From positions 43,007 to 107,006 of IMG/VR virus record IMGVR_UViG_3300042868_011225: a stretch of 64,000 nucleotides of DNA; one strand, 5' to 3'. This document shows, piece by piece, positions 42,739 through 62,372 of this stretch (the stretch's first letter is position 1; every line of letters begins with the position of its first letter). The notes beneath the pieces are model-generated. The model searched no databases, was not told the DNA's origin, and saw only the letters and a list, made by a program, of their open reading frames with translations. This DNA comes from a virus. The position numbers and the translations under genes are program-made.

Positions 42739-43086
42739 ATGGAAGAAGATATGTACAATGAAGGTATGTATGAAGAAGGTTATGGTGATGATAATGTATT
42801 AAACAAGTTAGCTCCAGAAGATAGAGAAGAGAAATTAAAAACTCAACCTGTATATTCTGAGGAAGAAGATAAAGAAGATGACTTATTTCGTAAATTTTTC
42901 ATTACTAGATTTGAAAGACAACCAGAGCAAGACCCTGGTTATTTTGAAACATGGAAAGAAAGATTAAGCAAACCTAACCCAGAAGGATACATGGATTCTA
43001 AAAGTAAAGAAGTTTGGGATATGTTAAAACGTCAAGACAGTGATAGATTTATCGATTCTGTTCCTTTTCCACCACACGGATACTAA
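42739..43086 (+). CDS. Small acidic protein or frameshifted extension of the upstream gene
   Basis: A 115-aa frame starting at ATG 42739 (MEEDMYNEGMYEEG), 14 bases after the previous stop. The frame is open upstream through SKLVNENW to the A10 tract, and that stretch looks like natural coding sequence, so the product may be the C-terminal part of a fusion with the 524-aa protein. The C-terminal 60 residues (FFITRFERQPEQDPGYFETW and on) look folded. No family recognised. Confidence 0.65.
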   Translation: MEEDMYNEGMYEEGYGDDNVLNKLAPEDREEKLKTQPVYSEEEDKEDDLFRKFFITRFERQPEQDPGYFETWKERLSKPNPEGYMDSKSKEVWDMLKRQDSDRFIDSVPFPPHGY

Positions 43087-47455: not shown

Positions 47456-48895
47456 ATGAAAAATTCATTATTATCTGCTATGCAAACAAAAGATTCACAA
47501 ACTGAAAACGGTATGGTTACTAACTCGTCATCATTAAACCACTGTGTAGATTTATTCTTCCAGATTGGAGCAATGAGAGGAGCTGACAAAACTCGTCTTA
47601 TAAATGTGTTTACGAAAGCATTTGGAGAAAATCCATTGACTGCCATGCGTTTATTATTTTGGGCGAGAGATGTACGTGGTGGTGCTGGTGAAAGACAAAT
47701 CTTTAAAGATATTATTTCTTACTTGGCTGAAAACCGTACAGAAACTCTTGGTAAAAACTTACACCTTATTTCAGAGTTCGGTAGATGGGATGATATGTTA
47801 GTATTGTTCGGTACTCCATTGGAGAGCCAAGCATTAGCATTAATCACTGAAGCTTTGAACGCTAAAAATGGTTTAACAGCAAAATGGATGCCACGTCCAA
47901 ACGTAGCAAACCGTGATGCTAAAAGACAAGCCAACACGCTTAGAAAACACTTAGGTTTATCTCCAAAGGATTACCGTAAGTTACTTGTTGAAAACTCTAA
48001 CACAGTTGAGCAATTGATGTGTGCTAGAGAATGGTCTAAAATTGAATACTCTAAATTGCCTTCAAAAGCAATGAGTGATTTGATGAAAGCCTTTTCTAAA
48101 AACGACTTAGCTCGTTTCCAAGAATACTTGGGAAGTGTTGAAAAAGGTGAGGCTAAAATCAATGCTGGTGCTTTGTACCCATATGATGTCATCAAAAACC
48201 TTAACCAAAACAACGTGAAAGGGGCTAACGCTCAATGGAACGCATTGCCAAACTTCTTGGAGTCTAACAATGAAAGATTCCTTCCAGTTGTTGACGTTTC
48301 TGGTTCAATGTCATGTCCTGCAGGGACATCACAAACCGTTACTTGTATGGATGTAGCAATCTCATTGGGATTATACATTTCTGAAAGAAACGTAGGTGCA
48401 TTTCAAGATGCATTTATTACTTTCTCGAACAATCCACAATTACAAATCCTTAAAGGTTCTCTTTCTGAAAGATACAATCAATTGCAAAGAGCTGCATGGG
48501 ATATGTCAACCAACGTTGAAGCGGTATTCAAGTTAATCTTGAAAAAAGCTGTGGACAACAATGTTCAAGAAAGTGAAATGCCAACAATGATTCTTATCCT
48601 TTCGGATATGGAATTCAATGCTGGTACTAGAGGAAATTGGAACTCTACTGCTCAAGAAATGTTCGAAAGAATGTACGCTGAAGCAGGTTATGTGATGCCA
48701 AAAATTGTTTACTGGAATATCCATTCTAGAAGCGACTCTAACAAACCAGTTCAATTCGACAAGAATGGGACTGCGTTGGTGTCTGGATTCTCACCTTCAT
48801 TACTAACTAACTTGTTAGGTGGTAAAGAAATGACTCCATACTCAATGATGATGAATGTAATCGATTCAGAGCGTTACGCTGCGATTACAGTTTAA
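47456..48895 (+). CDS. Ro60-like protein: DUF2828/TROVE-type helical repeats plus vWA domain
   Basis: A 479-aa protein. Residues 35-270 match the DUF2828/TROVE-like helical region: LLFWARDVRGGAGERQIFKD, LISEFGRWDDMLVLFG, a KWMPR segment, YRKLL, CAREWSKIEYSKLPSKAM and NAGALYPYDVI. Residues about 275-470 form a von Willebrand A domain with an intact MIDAS start, VVDVSGSMS, and a later SDMEF. Ro60 and bacterial Rsr share this ring-plus-vWA plan and bind misfolded RNA and small Y RNAs. The gene has its own promoter and is followed by a structured non-coding stretch. RNA binding is inferred from the family. Confidence 0.85.
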   Translation: MKNSLLSAMQTKDSQTENGMVTNSSSLNHCVDLFFQIGAMRGADKTRLINVFTKAFGENPLTAMRLLFWARDVRGGAGERQIFKDIISYLAENRTETLGKNLHLISEFGRWDDMLVLFGTPLESQALALITEALNAKNGLTAKWMPRPNVANRDAKRQANTLRKHLGLSPKDYRKLLVENSNTVEQLMCAREWSKIEYSKLPSKAMSDLMKAFSKNDLARFQEYLGSVEKGEAKINAGALYPYDVIKNLNQNNVKGANAQWNALPNFLESNNERFLPVVDVSGSMSCPAGTSQTVTCMDVAISLGLYISERNVGAFQDAFITFSNNPQLQILKGSLSERYNQLQRAAWDMSTNVEAVFKLILKKAVDNNVQESEMPTMILILSDMEFNAGTRGNWNSTAQEMFERMYAEAGYVMPKIVYWNIHSRSDSNKPVQFDKNGTALVSGFSPSLLTNLLGGKEMTPYSMMMNVIDSERYAAITV

Positions 48896-51355: not shown

Positions 51356-51386
51356 TTGTTTATATCAATAATTATACGTAATATTG
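51356..51386 (+). promoter_or_regulatory. Host-type promoter of dnaJ
   Basis: TTG (51356-51358), 20-base spacer, TAATATTG (51379-51386), one base off the TAnnTTTG consensus. Confidence 0.7.
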
Positions 51387-51407
51387 CAAAAATATAAATA
51401 CATTACT

Positions 51408-52451
51408 ATGAATAAAAAAGATTATTATGAAGTTTTAGGATTAAAAAAGGGTGCTAATGCCAGTGAAATCAAAAAAGCCTATAGAACTCTTGCTAAAGAA
51501 TTACACCCTGACAAAGGCGGTGATGAAAATGCATTCAAAGAAGTTAGCGAAGCATATGAGGTTTTATCGGATACTGATAAGAAAAATAGATACGACCAAT
51601 TTGGTCACGAAGATTCTGGCGGTGGTGGCGGTGGTCATGACCCATTCGGGTTCAATGCATTTCGTAATGGATTTGGTGGATTTGGTCGTCCACAACAACC
51701 AGCAGAACGCATTGGTGACAATATGAATCTGCTTATTAAATTAACACTAGAAGAAATTTATACTGGTGTTAAAAAAACTTACAAATACTCCAGAAATGGT
51801 ACTTGCACGACATGTAGTGGTCATGGGGGTACAGATATCGATGATTGTAGTACATGTAATGGTAGTGGTGTTTATACTAGGATTCTACAAACACCAATAG
51901 GTATGATGCAACAACAAATGCAATGTCCAACGTGTTCTGGTTTAGGTAAATCATACAAGGTTCAATGTGGTGTGTGTAATGGTCAAGGTACCAAACCTAC
52001 TGAAGAAACAATTGAAGTTGATATCCCATCAGGTGTAGCTGAAGGAATGACATTTGTTATGTCTGAAAAAGGACAAGGTATCAAAGGTGGTAAATGCGGT
52101 AATTTACTTATCAACATCCAAGAAATCAAACATAAACAATACCAAAGAAGTGGAAATGATTTGAAACTTAATTTAAAGGTTAATTATCCTTTGCTTATTT
52201 TAGGTGGTAAGGTTGAAGTGGAACTTATTGAAGGTACTAAAATTAGAGTTTCAGTACCAGAATATAGTGATGTTGGTGGACATTTAAGGATACAAGGTAA
52301 AGGTATGAAATTCTTAAATCAAGACCAAAGAGGTGATATACTTATTACGTTAGGTGTTGAAGTACCTAAAAATTTAGATGATGATACCAAAGCAGTTTTA
52401 ATAGATTTAAAAGAAAAACTAGAAAAAAATGTTGGTACTATAGAAAATTAG
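51408..52451 (+). CDS. dnaJ: DnaJ (type A Hsp40 co-chaperone)
   Basis: A 347-aa protein with start at ATG 51408 ([15 protein letters not shown]), just after the promoter. It has a J domain with the HPD motif (ELHPDKGG, about residues 33-40), a Gly/Phe region (about 72-100), four CxxCxGxG zinc repeats ([32 protein letters not shown], about 128-205) and the C-terminal substrate-binding domains. It would stimulate host DnaK. A full type A DnaJ is rare in phages; it may aid folding of the giant tail proteins. Its end overlaps the promoter of the next gene. Confidence 0.96.
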
Positions 52452-53232: not shown

Positions 53233-53952
53233 ATGAATTTAACAAATGACTTTAAACAATATGCCAAAGAGAATTTCGGTGTAACTGATTATGAATTCAA
53301 TACATGGGAAGGTATTCAACAAATGATTTACAACCCAACAGTATTATCTGGATTCCAAGGTGCCAATGCATCTTTAACACCATATATTCTTGAAGAAAGA
53401 GAAATGCGTGTAACACAAATGGATATTTTCTCTCGTTTGATGATGGACCGTATAATTTGGTTAGCTGGTCCAGTTAATGATAGAATGAGCACAGTAGTTC
53501 AAGCACAACTTATGTTCTTGGATAATTTAGAAGTAAAAGACATTACACTTCATGTTGACACACCTGGTGGGTCAGTTAAATCTGGGTTATCGATTGTAGA
53601 TGTCATCAACTACGTAAAATCTGAAATTGTTACAGTTAACACTGGTATGGCAGCAAGTATGGGAAGTATTTTATTGGGTGCTGGAACAAAAGGGAAACGT
53701 TATTCGTTGCCTAATAGTAGAGTAATGCTTCACCAAGTATCAACTGGTGCTTCTGGAAACATTCAAGATATCAGACGTTCAATTGCAGAAGGTGAAAAAT
53801 ATAATACTAAATTGTTTGCGTTGTTAGGTCAATATTGTGACAAAACACCAGAACAAGTGCTAGAAGATGCAAGTCGTGATTTATGGTTAGATGCTGAAGA
53901 AGCAAAAGCATACGGAATCATTGACGATATAATAACAACAAAGAAAAAATAA
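53233..53952 (+). CDS. clpP: ClpP serine protease
   Basis: A 239-aa ClpP. The catalytic triad is present: Ser in GMAASMGS (about residue 141), His in VMLHQVS (about 167) and Asp in DASRDLWLD (about 216). HVDTPGGSVKSGL forms the oxyanion-side loop. An N-terminal extension of about 45 residues precedes the core. ClpP needs an AAA+ partner such as host ClpX; ClpP-type proteases also act as prohead proteases in some phages, so a head-maturation role is an alternative, but close likeness to cellular ClpP favours protein turnover. The tmRNA gene follows, and tagged proteins are ClpXP substrates. Confidence 0.93.
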   Translation: MNLTNDFKQYAKENFGVTDYEFNTWEGIQQMIYNPTVLSGFQGANASLTPYILEEREMRVTQMDIFSRLMMDRIIWLAGPVNDRMSTVVQAQLMFLDNLEVKDITLHVDTPGGSVKSGLSIVDVINYVKSEIVTVNTGMAASMGSILLGAGTKGKRYSLPNSRVMLHQVSTGASGNIQDIRRSIAEGEKYNTKLFALLGQYCDKTPEQVLEDASRDLWLDAEEAKAYGIIDDIITTKKK

Positions 53953-54074: not shown

Positions 54075-54447
54075 GGGGATAAACGGTATCGACAGGGTAT
54101 GGTCGTAGATTGTAAGCATGTAGTGCTAGATTGGAAGCACTTTAATCTGTCTATTAAAAGATTGAATTGACAACGTATTTAACGTATCAGAAAATTTCTT
54201 GAACGAAGCATCAGTGTTTTCAACAAGAGAGTTAGCTGCAGCCTAAATGAAGCAAATGGTGGTAATCCACTTGATGGTGATAAATCACTAGAACCCACTT
54301 TCGTATGAGTGGTTAAGTCGGATACGGGTCATTATAGATATGGGACCAGCACTATCTTGAAAGATTGCCAGTTAAATGAATTGGATAAACATGTAGAAAG
54401 CCTTTTGTGAATGCTTTTGGACAGGGGTTCGACTCCCCTTATCTCCA
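54075..54447 (+). ncRNA. ssrA: tmRNA (transfer-messenger RNA)
   Basis: A 373-base tmRNA for rescue of stalled ribosomes and tagging of unfinished proteins. The 5' end GGGGATAAACGGTATCGACA and 3' end match the tmRNA tRNA-like domain. GGGGATA (54075-54081) pairs with TATCTCC (54440-54446), the discriminator is A54447, and the T-arm is AGGGG-TTCGACT-CCCCT. An internal reading frame ends GAG TTA GCT GCA GCC TAA (stop at 54244-54246), giving a tag that ends STRELAAA; the resume codon is not certain (GCA at 54208 would give ASVFSTRELAAA). CCA is not encoded. The hydrophobic LAAA end suits ClpXP-type recognition. Confidence 0.93.
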
Positions 54448-54493
54448 CTCGTAATGATTCTGCTCAACAATAACCTTTGAGACAGAAATAACA

Positions 54494-55843: not shown

Positions 55844-55955
55844 AATTCCCATGAAACGGCATGGTGCTGGTAAAAGAAATAAAGAATAGTTACAGCAAGT
55901 TAAAAAACTTTTAAATCTGAAAATTAAAACCAAACATGCTATTCTGAAACTTAAG

Positions 55956-55981
55956 AAGCCCATAGAAATATGGGCTTTCTT
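55956..55981 (+). terminator. Intrinsic terminator before the release factor gene
   Basis: AAGCCCA / TGGGCTT hairpin with loop TAGAAATA and a T-rich tail. The stretch from 55845 to 55955 holds only a 12-codon ORF (MKRHGAGKRNKE, 55851-55889) that I do not call a gene. Confidence 0.78.
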
Positions 55982-56012: not shown

Positions 56013-56694
56013 ATGGGACAAAAGATTCATTTAGAAATCCGTGATGCGGAAGGTGGAACAGATGCAAAGCTGTTGGTGGAACAGATGTTAGACATCTACA
56101 CCAAGACGGCAAGAATTAACAATTTAGAATGTAGCATAGTCGAAGAAAGAAGCGGCTTCGCCCATCTATGTCTTTAGCGGCCCAAAGGTAAAAGAGATAT
56201 TCCAGAATGAAGTAGGAAATCATCGTTGGCAAAGGGTCCCACCAACTGAAAAGAAGGGACGTGTTCACACCAGTTCAATTACCGTAGCAATAATGGAAGA
56301 AAACGATTATAAAGAGGTAGAATTATACCCTAACGAATATCGTTTAGAAACAACCAGAGGCACGGGAAATGGTGGCCAGCATAAAAACACTACAGATTCA
56401 TGTGTAGTAGTTACACACATAGCCACAAGCATCAAAGTAGTTCGAGATGGTAGAAATCAACACAAGAACAAAGAAGATGCGTTAAAAGAGCTTACAAAGC
56501 GTGTAAACGATTATTATAGAACAGGACACTTAGAAGAAAGCGTAGAAGAGCGAAGAGACCAAATCGGCAAAGGTGATAGAAGCGACAAACGTAGAACATA
56601 TAGAGTGAAAGATTCAATAGTAGTTGACCACATAACCAACAAAACAGCATCATTGAAAGATGTGCTTAGAGGTAAAATCGAATTACTATCATAA
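56013..56694 (+). CDS. Domain-1-less RF1-class release factor, joined by a +1 frameshift
   Basis: Class I peptide release factor, about 226 aa after the shift. The zero frame (56013-56174, 54 codons, MGQKIHLEIRDAEGGTDAKL and on) ends at TAG 56175-56177; the +1 frame continues from AGC 56176 without a gap in homology: SGPKVKEIFQNEVGNHRWQR, then VPPTE, the PxT motif of RF1 that reads UAG and UAA. Next come GRVHTSSITVAI, the catalytic GGQ (GTGNGGQHKNTTDS) and GDRSDKRRTY near the end. RF1 domain 1 and the far C-terminus are missing. The junction CTT TAG C mirrors the RF2 autoregulatory site CTT TGA C. No promoter was recognised upstream. An unshifted frame starting at the ATG at 56293 would lack the PxT loop. 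Confidence 0.9.
56172..56178 (+). promoter_or_regulatory. Programmed +1 frameshift site CTT TAG C
   Basis: The P-site CTT can re-pair as TTT, and the slow A-site TAG with +4 C gives time to slip. Identical to the RF2 site except that TGA is replaced by TAG. A short GGC-TTC-GCC hairpin can form at 56153-56161. No clear Shine-Dalgarno-like stimulator (AGGGGG in E. coli prfB) is seen upstream. Confidence 0.85.
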
Positions 56695-56700
56695 TTAATT

Positions 56701-56727
56701 AAGTTCCCAATTTGGGAACTTTTTTAT
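56701..56727 (+). terminator. Intrinsic terminator after the release factor
   Basis: AAGTTCCCA / TGGGAACTT hairpin followed by T-rich sequence. Confidence 0.9.
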
Positions 56728-61256: not shown

Positions 61257-62372
61257 ATGACACAGAGAGTAAAATTTAATATGCAACTACCACAAGATAT
61301 CCTTACTATTAAAGATATCTTCAAAGCTAACAGTTTCCAATTATTCGTAGTTGGTGGAGCTGTTCGTGATGCTGTGCTAGGCAAAGACCCTAAAGATTTT
61401 GACTTGGCTACCAACGCAAAACCAGACCAAGTGGAACAAATGATGCAAGATGCTGGATTTACCACACTTGCAACTGGAAAAGCTTTCGGTGTAATCAATG
61501 TATTCACTGATTCAGGTGATTTTGAAATTGCAACATTCAGAAAAGATATCGGTTCAGGTCGTAGACCAGATTCAGTAGAATTTACTACTATCGAAGGTGA
61601 CGTTTCAAGACGTGACTTAACTATCAACGCACTTTTCTTCGATATTGAAGCTGGTGAAATTGTTGACTTGGTTGGTGGACTTGAAGACCTAAGAAATGGT
61701 GTAATCAAAACCGTTGGCTCAGCCAAAGATAGATTCTCTGAAGATAGACTTCGTATCCTACGAGCAATTAGGTTTGCTGAAAGGTTTGGTAGTGATTTGG
61801 ATAATGATATTTTATGGGCTTTGAAAGAAGATTCTAGTCTTGAAGGTATAAGTCATGAAAGAATTAGAGATGAGTTCTTAAAAGGTCTTAAATCGGCTAA
61901 GTCGATAGGTGAGTTTTTATTTACTCTAGAGATTTTTCATTTATTTGATTGGATATTTCCAGATTTGATAGTTAATCATAGATTCATTATCCAAGATGAC
62001 CCGATTGTTGTTATGGCATCATTACTTAAAAGTAACGATAAAACATTCTTGCCAAAGCAATTGAACAAATTGACATACTCAACAGATGAAATCAAAGCCA
62101 TCATGTTTCTTATCTCTTTGAAAGAGTTGGATGATGATACTGCGGTTGAAATCAAGAGAAAACAAAAGAACTCAGGTGTTACAACTGACCAAATACTTAA
62201 CTTTACAACTCGTGAAGGTGTACCATCACAATTGGTGGATTCTTTCTTGGCTTTTGAGTTGAGTGTAACTGGTGATGATGTAATGAGAGAAAAAGGTTTG
62301 AAACCTGGTCCAGAATTGGGTAAAGCCATCCTAGAGATTGAAACTGAAAACTTTAAAAAGATAATAGTATAA
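61257..62372 (+). CDS. tRNA nucleotidyltransferase (CCA-adding enzyme / poly(A) polymerase family)
   Basis: A 371-aa class II nucleotidyltransferase. Marks: LFVVGGAVRDAVLG (about residues 29-42), DFDLAT (metal-binding Asp pair, about 47-52), RRPDSVEF (about 101), RRDLTINALFFD (about 119-130), and RLRILRAIRFAERFG (about 162-176) of the neck region. The family adds CCA to tRNA 3' ends or A tails to RNA. The phage tmRNA, tRNA-CAU and tRNA-like RNA in this window all lack encoded CCA, so this enzyme is a fitting partner. Short length without an HD domain is within the family's range. Confidence 0.93.
   Translation: MTQRVKFNMQLPQDILTIKDIFKANSFQLFVVGGAVRDAVLGKDPKDFDLATNAKPDQVEQMMQDAGFTTLATGKAFGVINVFTDSGDFEIATFRKDIGSGRRPDSVEFTTIEGDVSRRDLTINALFFDIEAGEIVDLVGGLEDLRNGVIKTVGSAKDRFSEDRLRILRAIRFAERFGSDLDNDILWALKEDSSLEGISHERIRDEFLKGLKSAKSIGEFLFTLEIFHLFDWIFPDLIVNHRFIIQDDPIVVMASLLKSNDKTFLPKQLNKLTYSTDEIKAIMFLISLKELDDDTAVEIKRKQKNSGVTTDQILNFTTREGVPSQLVDSFLAFELSVTGDDVMREKGLKPGPELGKAILEIETENFKKIIV

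Follow-up and report, generated by a model that had tools for sequence, protein, structure and literature searches.

An interrupted release-factor gene

Why would a phage carry a release-factor gene that is broken by a stop codon? The question is raised by positions 56,013 to 56,694 of a 64,000-nucleotide stretch of viral DNA (positions 43,007 to 107,006 of the IMG/VR record IMGVR_UViG_3300042868_011225), referred to here as the window, which is part of a 107-kb virus record; IMG/VR records may be fragments. Our analysis indicates that the gene belongs to a widespread family of short RF1-class factors, found in large phages and some bacteria, which is very likely held under a stop gate whose device, position and codon have been swapped (UGA or UAG, hardly ever UAA) while the gate itself has almost never been lost. 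By the same judgement, the family would include the first case of UAG-gated regulation of the RF1 type, as well as the first release-factor genes in bacteria and their phages to be gated by an ordinary in-frame stop. The window gene probably encodes a factor of domains 2-4, made only upon a +1 shift at CUU UAG C, which would exert negative feedback on the capacity for UAA/UAG termination.

The ATG at 56013 starts 54 sense codons, the last of which, CTT (56172-56174), is followed by TAG (56175-56177) and C (56178). Release-factor homology then continues, with zero residues lost, in the +1 frame between AGC at 56176 and TAA at 56692-56694, and skipping one base at the junction gives a product of 226 amino acids. 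Both the coordinates and the uninterrupted homology reported in a first-pass annotation, made by a model from the sequence alone, are thus confirmed. The features of the locus are:

56013-56174, plus strand: zero-frame part, 54 codons, start of the PCRF domain (open reading frame (ORF), family matches, purifying selection)
56130-56132, plus strand: Cys codon TGT (residue 40); its alignment column is an in-frame TGA in eight relatives (site 1a)
56169-56171, plus strand: Cys codon TGT preceding the slip codon; in-frame TGA or TAG in non-shifting relatives (site 2)
56172-56178, plus strand: shift heptamer CTT TAG C, comprising slip codon CTT, gate stop TAG and +4 base C
56176-56694, plus strand: +1-frame part, AGC to TAA, remainder of the PCRF domain and the RF-1 domain
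56239-56247, plus strand: PPT codon-reading motif (PxT, RF1 type)
56371-56379, plus strand: GGQ catalytic motif
55955-55978, plus strand: terminator-like hairpin 5' of the gene (consensus scan only)
56701-56721, plus strand: terminator-like hairpin 3' of the gene (consensus scan only)

The upstream hairpin suggests that the release-factor gene stands alone. No other PF00472 gene was found in the virus record. No ATG, GTG or TTG precedes 56293 in the +1 frame, and this position is beyond the PPT motif, so internal initiation cannot provide the codon-reading motif. None of 90 ORFs of the window genome ends in CTT followed by a stop; CTT makes up 18% of its Leu codons.

Conservation of the junction

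The first scan of viral contigs returned 19 relatives, among which CTT TAG C with a +1 continuation is found at the same codon in L009, L013/L020, L015 and L016; later scans revealed the same junction in L095/L096, L097, L115 and L140. A TGY CTT TAG C +1 site at the homologous position is therefore present in eight relatives, which answers a check proposed with the first-pass annotation, namely a search for CTTTAGC at the same codon of related phages. L098 has the CTT TAG C site together with one further shift. The codon preceding CTT is TGT or TGC in the window and in all eight other shifters read at this site. As these contigs derive from several different samples, it is implausible that they share one assembly error. 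Both sides of the junction are under purifying selection: the ratio of nonsynonymous to synonymous substitution rates (dN/dS) is 0.08-0.34 before as well as after it, wherever dS is unsaturated.

The remaining close relatives have no shift and instead possess an in-frame TGA at the codon aligning with the window's TGY before CTT, usually with another TGA located 8 or 13 codons before it. In L017-L019 the second site is occupied by TAG, and L016 combines an in-frame TGA with the CTT TAG C shift. The prevalence of in-frame UGA at the window's Cys codon among close relatives extends the earlier annotation, as does the absence of domain 1 described below. Homologous genes with in-frame TGA are also present in four huge-phage genomes of 635-735 kb (LR756504, LR745206, LR756502 and LR756501), which we take to belong to the Al-Shayeb set. 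The paper on that set (PMC7162821) lists release factors among huge-phage genes and, in its accessible text, does not contain the word frameshift. We found the gene in no isolated phage; the top matches are metagenomic huge-phage genomes, and most others are bacterial-looking sequence.

A family of stop-gated genes

Three alignment-based scans of viral contigs found 306, 234 and 118 relatives, the best 80 of each being kept, and a scan of bacterial and archaeal genomes added 39 loci, mainly from Myxococcota and Proteobacteria. The family counts refer to 157 distinct genes readable by an automatic motif-based caller, in a sampling that favours the best matches. The results show that 150 of the 157 are interrupted, all in one short stretch: 80 by a +1 shift, 68 by in-frame stops and 2 by other shifts, while 7 are intact. 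Every one of the 80 shifters leaves from CTT, and the stop is UGA in 58, UAG in 21 and UAA in one. The in-frame gates, most of which cluster in five columns of the alignment within a single PCRF stretch, are UGA with a handful of UAG exceptions, and none is UAA. A looser search placed about 20 of 52 loci missed by the caller (repeats and a few doubtful cases included) with the same mix; they include one further UAA-gated gene and an intact gene outside the 157, L063. The +1 shift proposed as the device is upheld for the window, but about half of the family uses an in-frame stop. A +4 T, characteristic of strong termination, occurs at none of 83 in-frame gates, compared with 299 of 691 ORF ends in this phage group (p 1e-19).

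We calculated a tree with the gate columns removed; the method was quick, the proteins are short, many forks are weak, and recombination within the window clade is possible. Bacterial RF1 and RF2 together form one fully supported side, with the family on the other. The tree calls for at least 18 changes between shift and in-frame device and at least 11 changes between UGA and UAG among the shifters, and on this topology the gate appears to have been retained while device and gate codon switched repeatedly.

Gated copies are present on bacterial chromosomes and plasmids as well. The bacterial genomes that we checked possess, besides the gated copy, longer release-factor genes bearing PAT/PET or SPF. 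Comparison of the UAG gates of the family with the prfB motifs of PMC12421855, none of which has UAG among 8,164, gives a Fisher p of about 3e-44, the relatives not being independent of each other.

A short RF1-class protein

The fused 226-residue product matches the Pfam families PCRF (5e-18) and RF-1 (1.5e-22). Among NCBIfam models it scores 198.4 bits with RF1, 107 with RF2 and 77.9 with PrfH, which leaves it below the equivalog cut-off for RF1 (400), that for RF2, and that of the PrfH model TIGR03072 (166.65). The match to the RF1 profile begins at profile position 104, hence domain 1 is missing from the window protein. This is general in the family: a start codon lies 1-8 codons ahead of the EGG motif in all but two genes, although a few frames are open further upstream. 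A sequence search of the PDB with the window product also returned RF1 as the top matches. The AlphaFold model of a relative 81% identical to it (L002, with UGA read as Trp) has a mean predicted local distance difference test (pLDDT) score of 87 and superimposes on ribosome-bound Thermus RF1 with a template modelling (TM) score of 0.91.

RF1 specificity is set by the first and third residues of PxT, as demonstrated by tripeptide-swap studies. Among 137 family rows the initial P is present in 134, the second P of PPT and its T in all 137, the equivalent of Q181 in 122 and GGQ in 136, and the codon-reading residues are constant whatever the gate codon. Together with the top-ranking RF1 match, these counts bear out the earlier assignment of the product to the RF1 type on the basis of PPT and GGQ. 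From its PPT, the window factor is predicted to read its own gate stop, UAG. No link was found between H193Q in the reading loop and the gate codon, in a test weakened by too few pairs.

In a relative in LR745208 (L064:3001-3649), which has a CTT TGA C shift, GGQ is kept and the PxT is seemingly lost (RVQRTSNGRIHSS); its codon specificity may differ. In L052:1700-2700 (G006:C1 about 51923-52204) we found a second, remnant-like release-factor fragment, consisting of a GGQ half joined to the end of unrelated sequence and separated by about 3 kb from that phage's gated gene.

Shift designs

Two designs of shift are seen. At site 1, 31 codons past the EGG motif, most are preceded by a strong Shine-Dalgarno sequence at the prfB spacing (e.g. 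CGGAGGGGT CTT TGA), with a median duplex energy of -10 kcal/mol (n=66). The UAG-gated shifters L156, L163, L177, L230 and L259 belong to this variety; L134 has no such sequence. At site 2, the type seen in the window, no Shine-Dalgarno sequence is present (median duplex +1.0, n=8; window site +1.3). Its absence had been tentatively ascribed to weak Shine-Dalgarno use in Bacteroidetes. This explanation fails, as AGGGGGN3CTTTGAC is present in 20 of 99 genomes of the Bacteroidetes class to which the metagenome-assembled genome of L154 belongs, and also in the prfB of that genome. The absence of a Shine-Dalgarno sequence goes with the site-2 position.

Genetic code and stop usage

Phages carrying the gated genes use the standard code. 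In the parts of 11 genomes analysed, coding coverage barely rises when UGA or UAG is read as sense. Alignments of other genes between genomes, 1,740 in all, contain one or two credible internal stops. The window record (the window plus L021 and L022) has 81 ORFs of at least 80 residues, of which 71 end in TAA, 10 in TAG and none in TGA; in relatives TGA ends up to about a fifth of ORFs. No tRNA with a UCA anticodon is listed in the genomes scanned, and the scanned parts of the window record have neither a CUA nor a UCA tRNA.

In most relatives the release-factor gene is followed, at a distance of about 1-3 kb, by a tRNA gene with a CUA anticodon (tRNA-Pyl according to ARAGORN), often near tRNA-Cys (e.g. 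L034:18099-18172, L036:10009-10080, L040:5680-5755 and L058:8443-8515). A 102-kb phage contig has, close to its release-factor gene, a tRNA-like gene whose predicted anticodon, ccta, has four bases (L014:1487-1563, the same as L056:18692-18768). The phage of L040, which has a CUA tRNA, also contains at L040:16102 an in-frame TAG within a gene conserved in five alignments, possibly an amber-read gene.

What the gate may sense

With nearly all of the related genes interrupted too, the stop looks like a built-in sensor of release-factor supply. In the window gene, UAG would be slow when RF1-type activity, i.e. that of host RF1 and the phage factor together, is short relative to the load, which consists of phage ORFs ending in UAA (about 88%) or UAG (about 12%). 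At a slow UAG, the P-site tRNA-Leu would slip from CUU to UUU and the factor would be made; with sufficient RF1-type activity a stub of 54 residues would be released. In UGA-gated relatives an RF1-type factor would be induced when RF2 is short and would take over UAA, freeing RF2 for UGA; the loop would be closed indirectly, through a lightening of the UAA load that the two factors share. UAA is read by either factor, and its rarity as a gate is consistent with the sensing of one factor only. The shift rate, its control by the RF1 level, the codon specificity and the benefit to the phage are features that we infer from sequence.

Several observations weigh against negative feedback of this kind. 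UGA, which an RF1-type factor should not read, is the commoner gate; the window's CTT TAG C has no Shine-Dalgarno-like stimulator; no conserved RNA structure was found near the shift, where z scores scatter and only the region upstream in L016 reaches -2.5; and seven family members, plus L063 outside the count, are intact. As UGA gates outnumber UAG gates on proteins with the same PPT, most members would sense RF2, which they should be unable to replace at UGA, and self-reading would not be a general rule. The arrangement had been called a mirror image of RF2 autoregulation. A UAG gate on a reader of UAA and UAG is indeed the logical mirror of prfB, and plausible here, but UAG is the minority gate and the autoregulation itself is putative. 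We infer that the common theme would be the sensing of release-factor supply rather than strict self-reading.

Alternatively, the gate could be a timing switch that allows the factor to be made once the phage has altered host termination, either by limiting a host release factor or by means of its own stop-reading tRNA. We regard this as unlikely, although most gates are UGA, which the product is not expected to read, a CUA-anticodon tRNA lies downstream of the gene in nearly all close relatives, and a gene with two in-frame UGAs would stay nearly silent until UGA decoding changes. The scanned parts of the window record lack both CUA and UCA tRNAs, and gated copies are not confined to phages. 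Moreover, frame-0 suppression of the window's UAG meets a TGA ten codons on, so UAG suppression cannot yield this product.

Still less probable is a PrfH-like rescue factor for stalled or damaged ribosomes, with the gate reporting general termination trouble. The RF1 score (198 bits, vs 78 for PrfH) and the retained stop-codon-reading residues of RF1 speak against this reading, even though domain 1 is missing, as in PrfH, and tmRNA and ClpP genes lie near the window gene. Bacterial copies beside a kinase-phosphatase-RNA ligase gene and near a NADAR-domain gene would suit a rescue factor, but just these two neighbourhoods of the RNA-repair type were seen. The former is in Novimethylophilus (L174:217-2430), with the gated gene directly behind the ligase gene, and the latter in Achromobacter (L180:644-1153); they hint at RNA-repair or conflict islands. 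Among the genes listed around the window gene, no RtcB was recognised by eye, and RtcB was not the target of a dedicated search.

The genomic neighborhood of the window gene includes a tmRNA with the tag EANGGNPLDGDKSLEPTFV (54075-54448), near which are a DnaJ-like ORF (51384-52451) and a ClpP-like ORF (53233-53952), and a CCA-adding-type nucleotidyltransferase (61257-62372). With the release factor, these genes resemble a translation quality-control set. A protein of 479 residues containing DUF7788 and DUF2828 domains is encoded at 47456-48895.

Sequencing or assembly error, or gene decay, is hardly conceivable: a single base parts the frames, metagenome assemblies do err and L098 seems to hold an extra shift, but we reject this explanation because the identical junction recurs in many assemblies, dN/dS is well below 1 on both sides, and in 150 of 157 relatives specific stops interrupt the gene at a small number of fixed places. 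Equally remote is a changed genetic code (UGA as Trp or UAG as sense; code 4 or 15), for which the alignment of one subfamily's in-frame UGA with a conserved RF1 Trp (column 222, where 8 of 9 bacterial RF1 sequences have W) and the CUA tRNAs of relatives might be cited, and which we reject since no stop is used as sense across genes (coverage in parts of 11 genomes scarcely improves, and one or two credible internal stops are seen per 1,740 alignments) and the +1 shifts would be left unexplained. Reading of the UGA gates as Cys or selenocysteine, prompted by the window clade, which has Cys at the two aligned sites, was set aside because of that Trp-aligned UGA and because few independent events support Cys.

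Relationship to known systems

Autoregulation of RF2 through CUU UGA C is a textbook case of a release factor controlled by a stop codon in its own gene. According to PMC5009743, an RF1/UAG counterpart of a factor controlled by an in-frame stop is unknown, and PMC12421855 reports no TAG in the prfB motifs of 8,164 genomes and no programmed shift in prfA. Both agree with the first-pass annotation, which knew of no such regulation of prfA. The lack of an RF1 counterpart, or of an RF2 gene in bacteria that is under an ordinary in-frame stop, is on record in these papers. In the open-licence literature we found no earlier description of a stop-gated short RF1-class family, which is likely undescribed so far.

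The window gene shares with prfB (PMC5009743, PMC12421855) the CUU directly before the stop, the +4 C and the dependence of a class-I release factor on a +1 shift, and its site-1 relatives also share the Shine-Dalgarno sequence and spacing of prfB. It differs in that it is of RF1 class, has UAG rather than UGA as the gate, lacks a Shine-Dalgarno sequence 3 nt before CUU and domain 1, and is gated 54 codons in, within PCRF; in addition, many relatives have an in-frame stop. With RF1 (prfA) it has in common the PxT, Q and HTS reading residues, GGQ and the fold of domains 2-4, whereas it lacks domain 1, scores below the equivalog cut-off, has the PPT that is constant in the sampled family, and is stop-gated, a feature not known for prfA (PMC12421855). 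Domain 1 is likewise missing from PrfH of the RtcB-PrfH pair (PMC1586002, PMC6514570), and one bacterial relative of the window gene adjoins an RNA-repair gene; however, the window product scores 77.9 bits against the PrfH cut-off of 166.65 and keeps the RF1-type PxT.

Two further cases are compared here by their mention in other papers. A release-factor gene of an amoeba giant virus is mentioned in PMC5009743 as being expressed through readthrough and frameshifting; it belongs to a virus of a eukaryote, and the comparison is by that mention, not by sequence. Phages using code 4 are mentioned in PMC10746230 as carrying RF1, a UGA-reading tRNA and tryptophanyl-tRNA synthetase (TrpRS). They resemble the window group, as far as that mention goes, in a phage-borne RF1-type factor, but the window group uses the standard code and its release-factor gene is essentially the sole interrupted gene.

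The family thus provides candidates both for the RF1 counterpart of the RF2 gate and for a release factor gated by a plain in-frame stop. Standard annotation splits gated genes (e.g. the copy on a Variovorax plasmid is annotated as two ORFs). The natural variation between UGA and UAG gates on one kind of protein makes it possible to ask directly what the gate senses, be it self-reading, the partner factor or the termination load. The finding suggests that release-factor supply is a limiting and sensed resource in infection by large phages.
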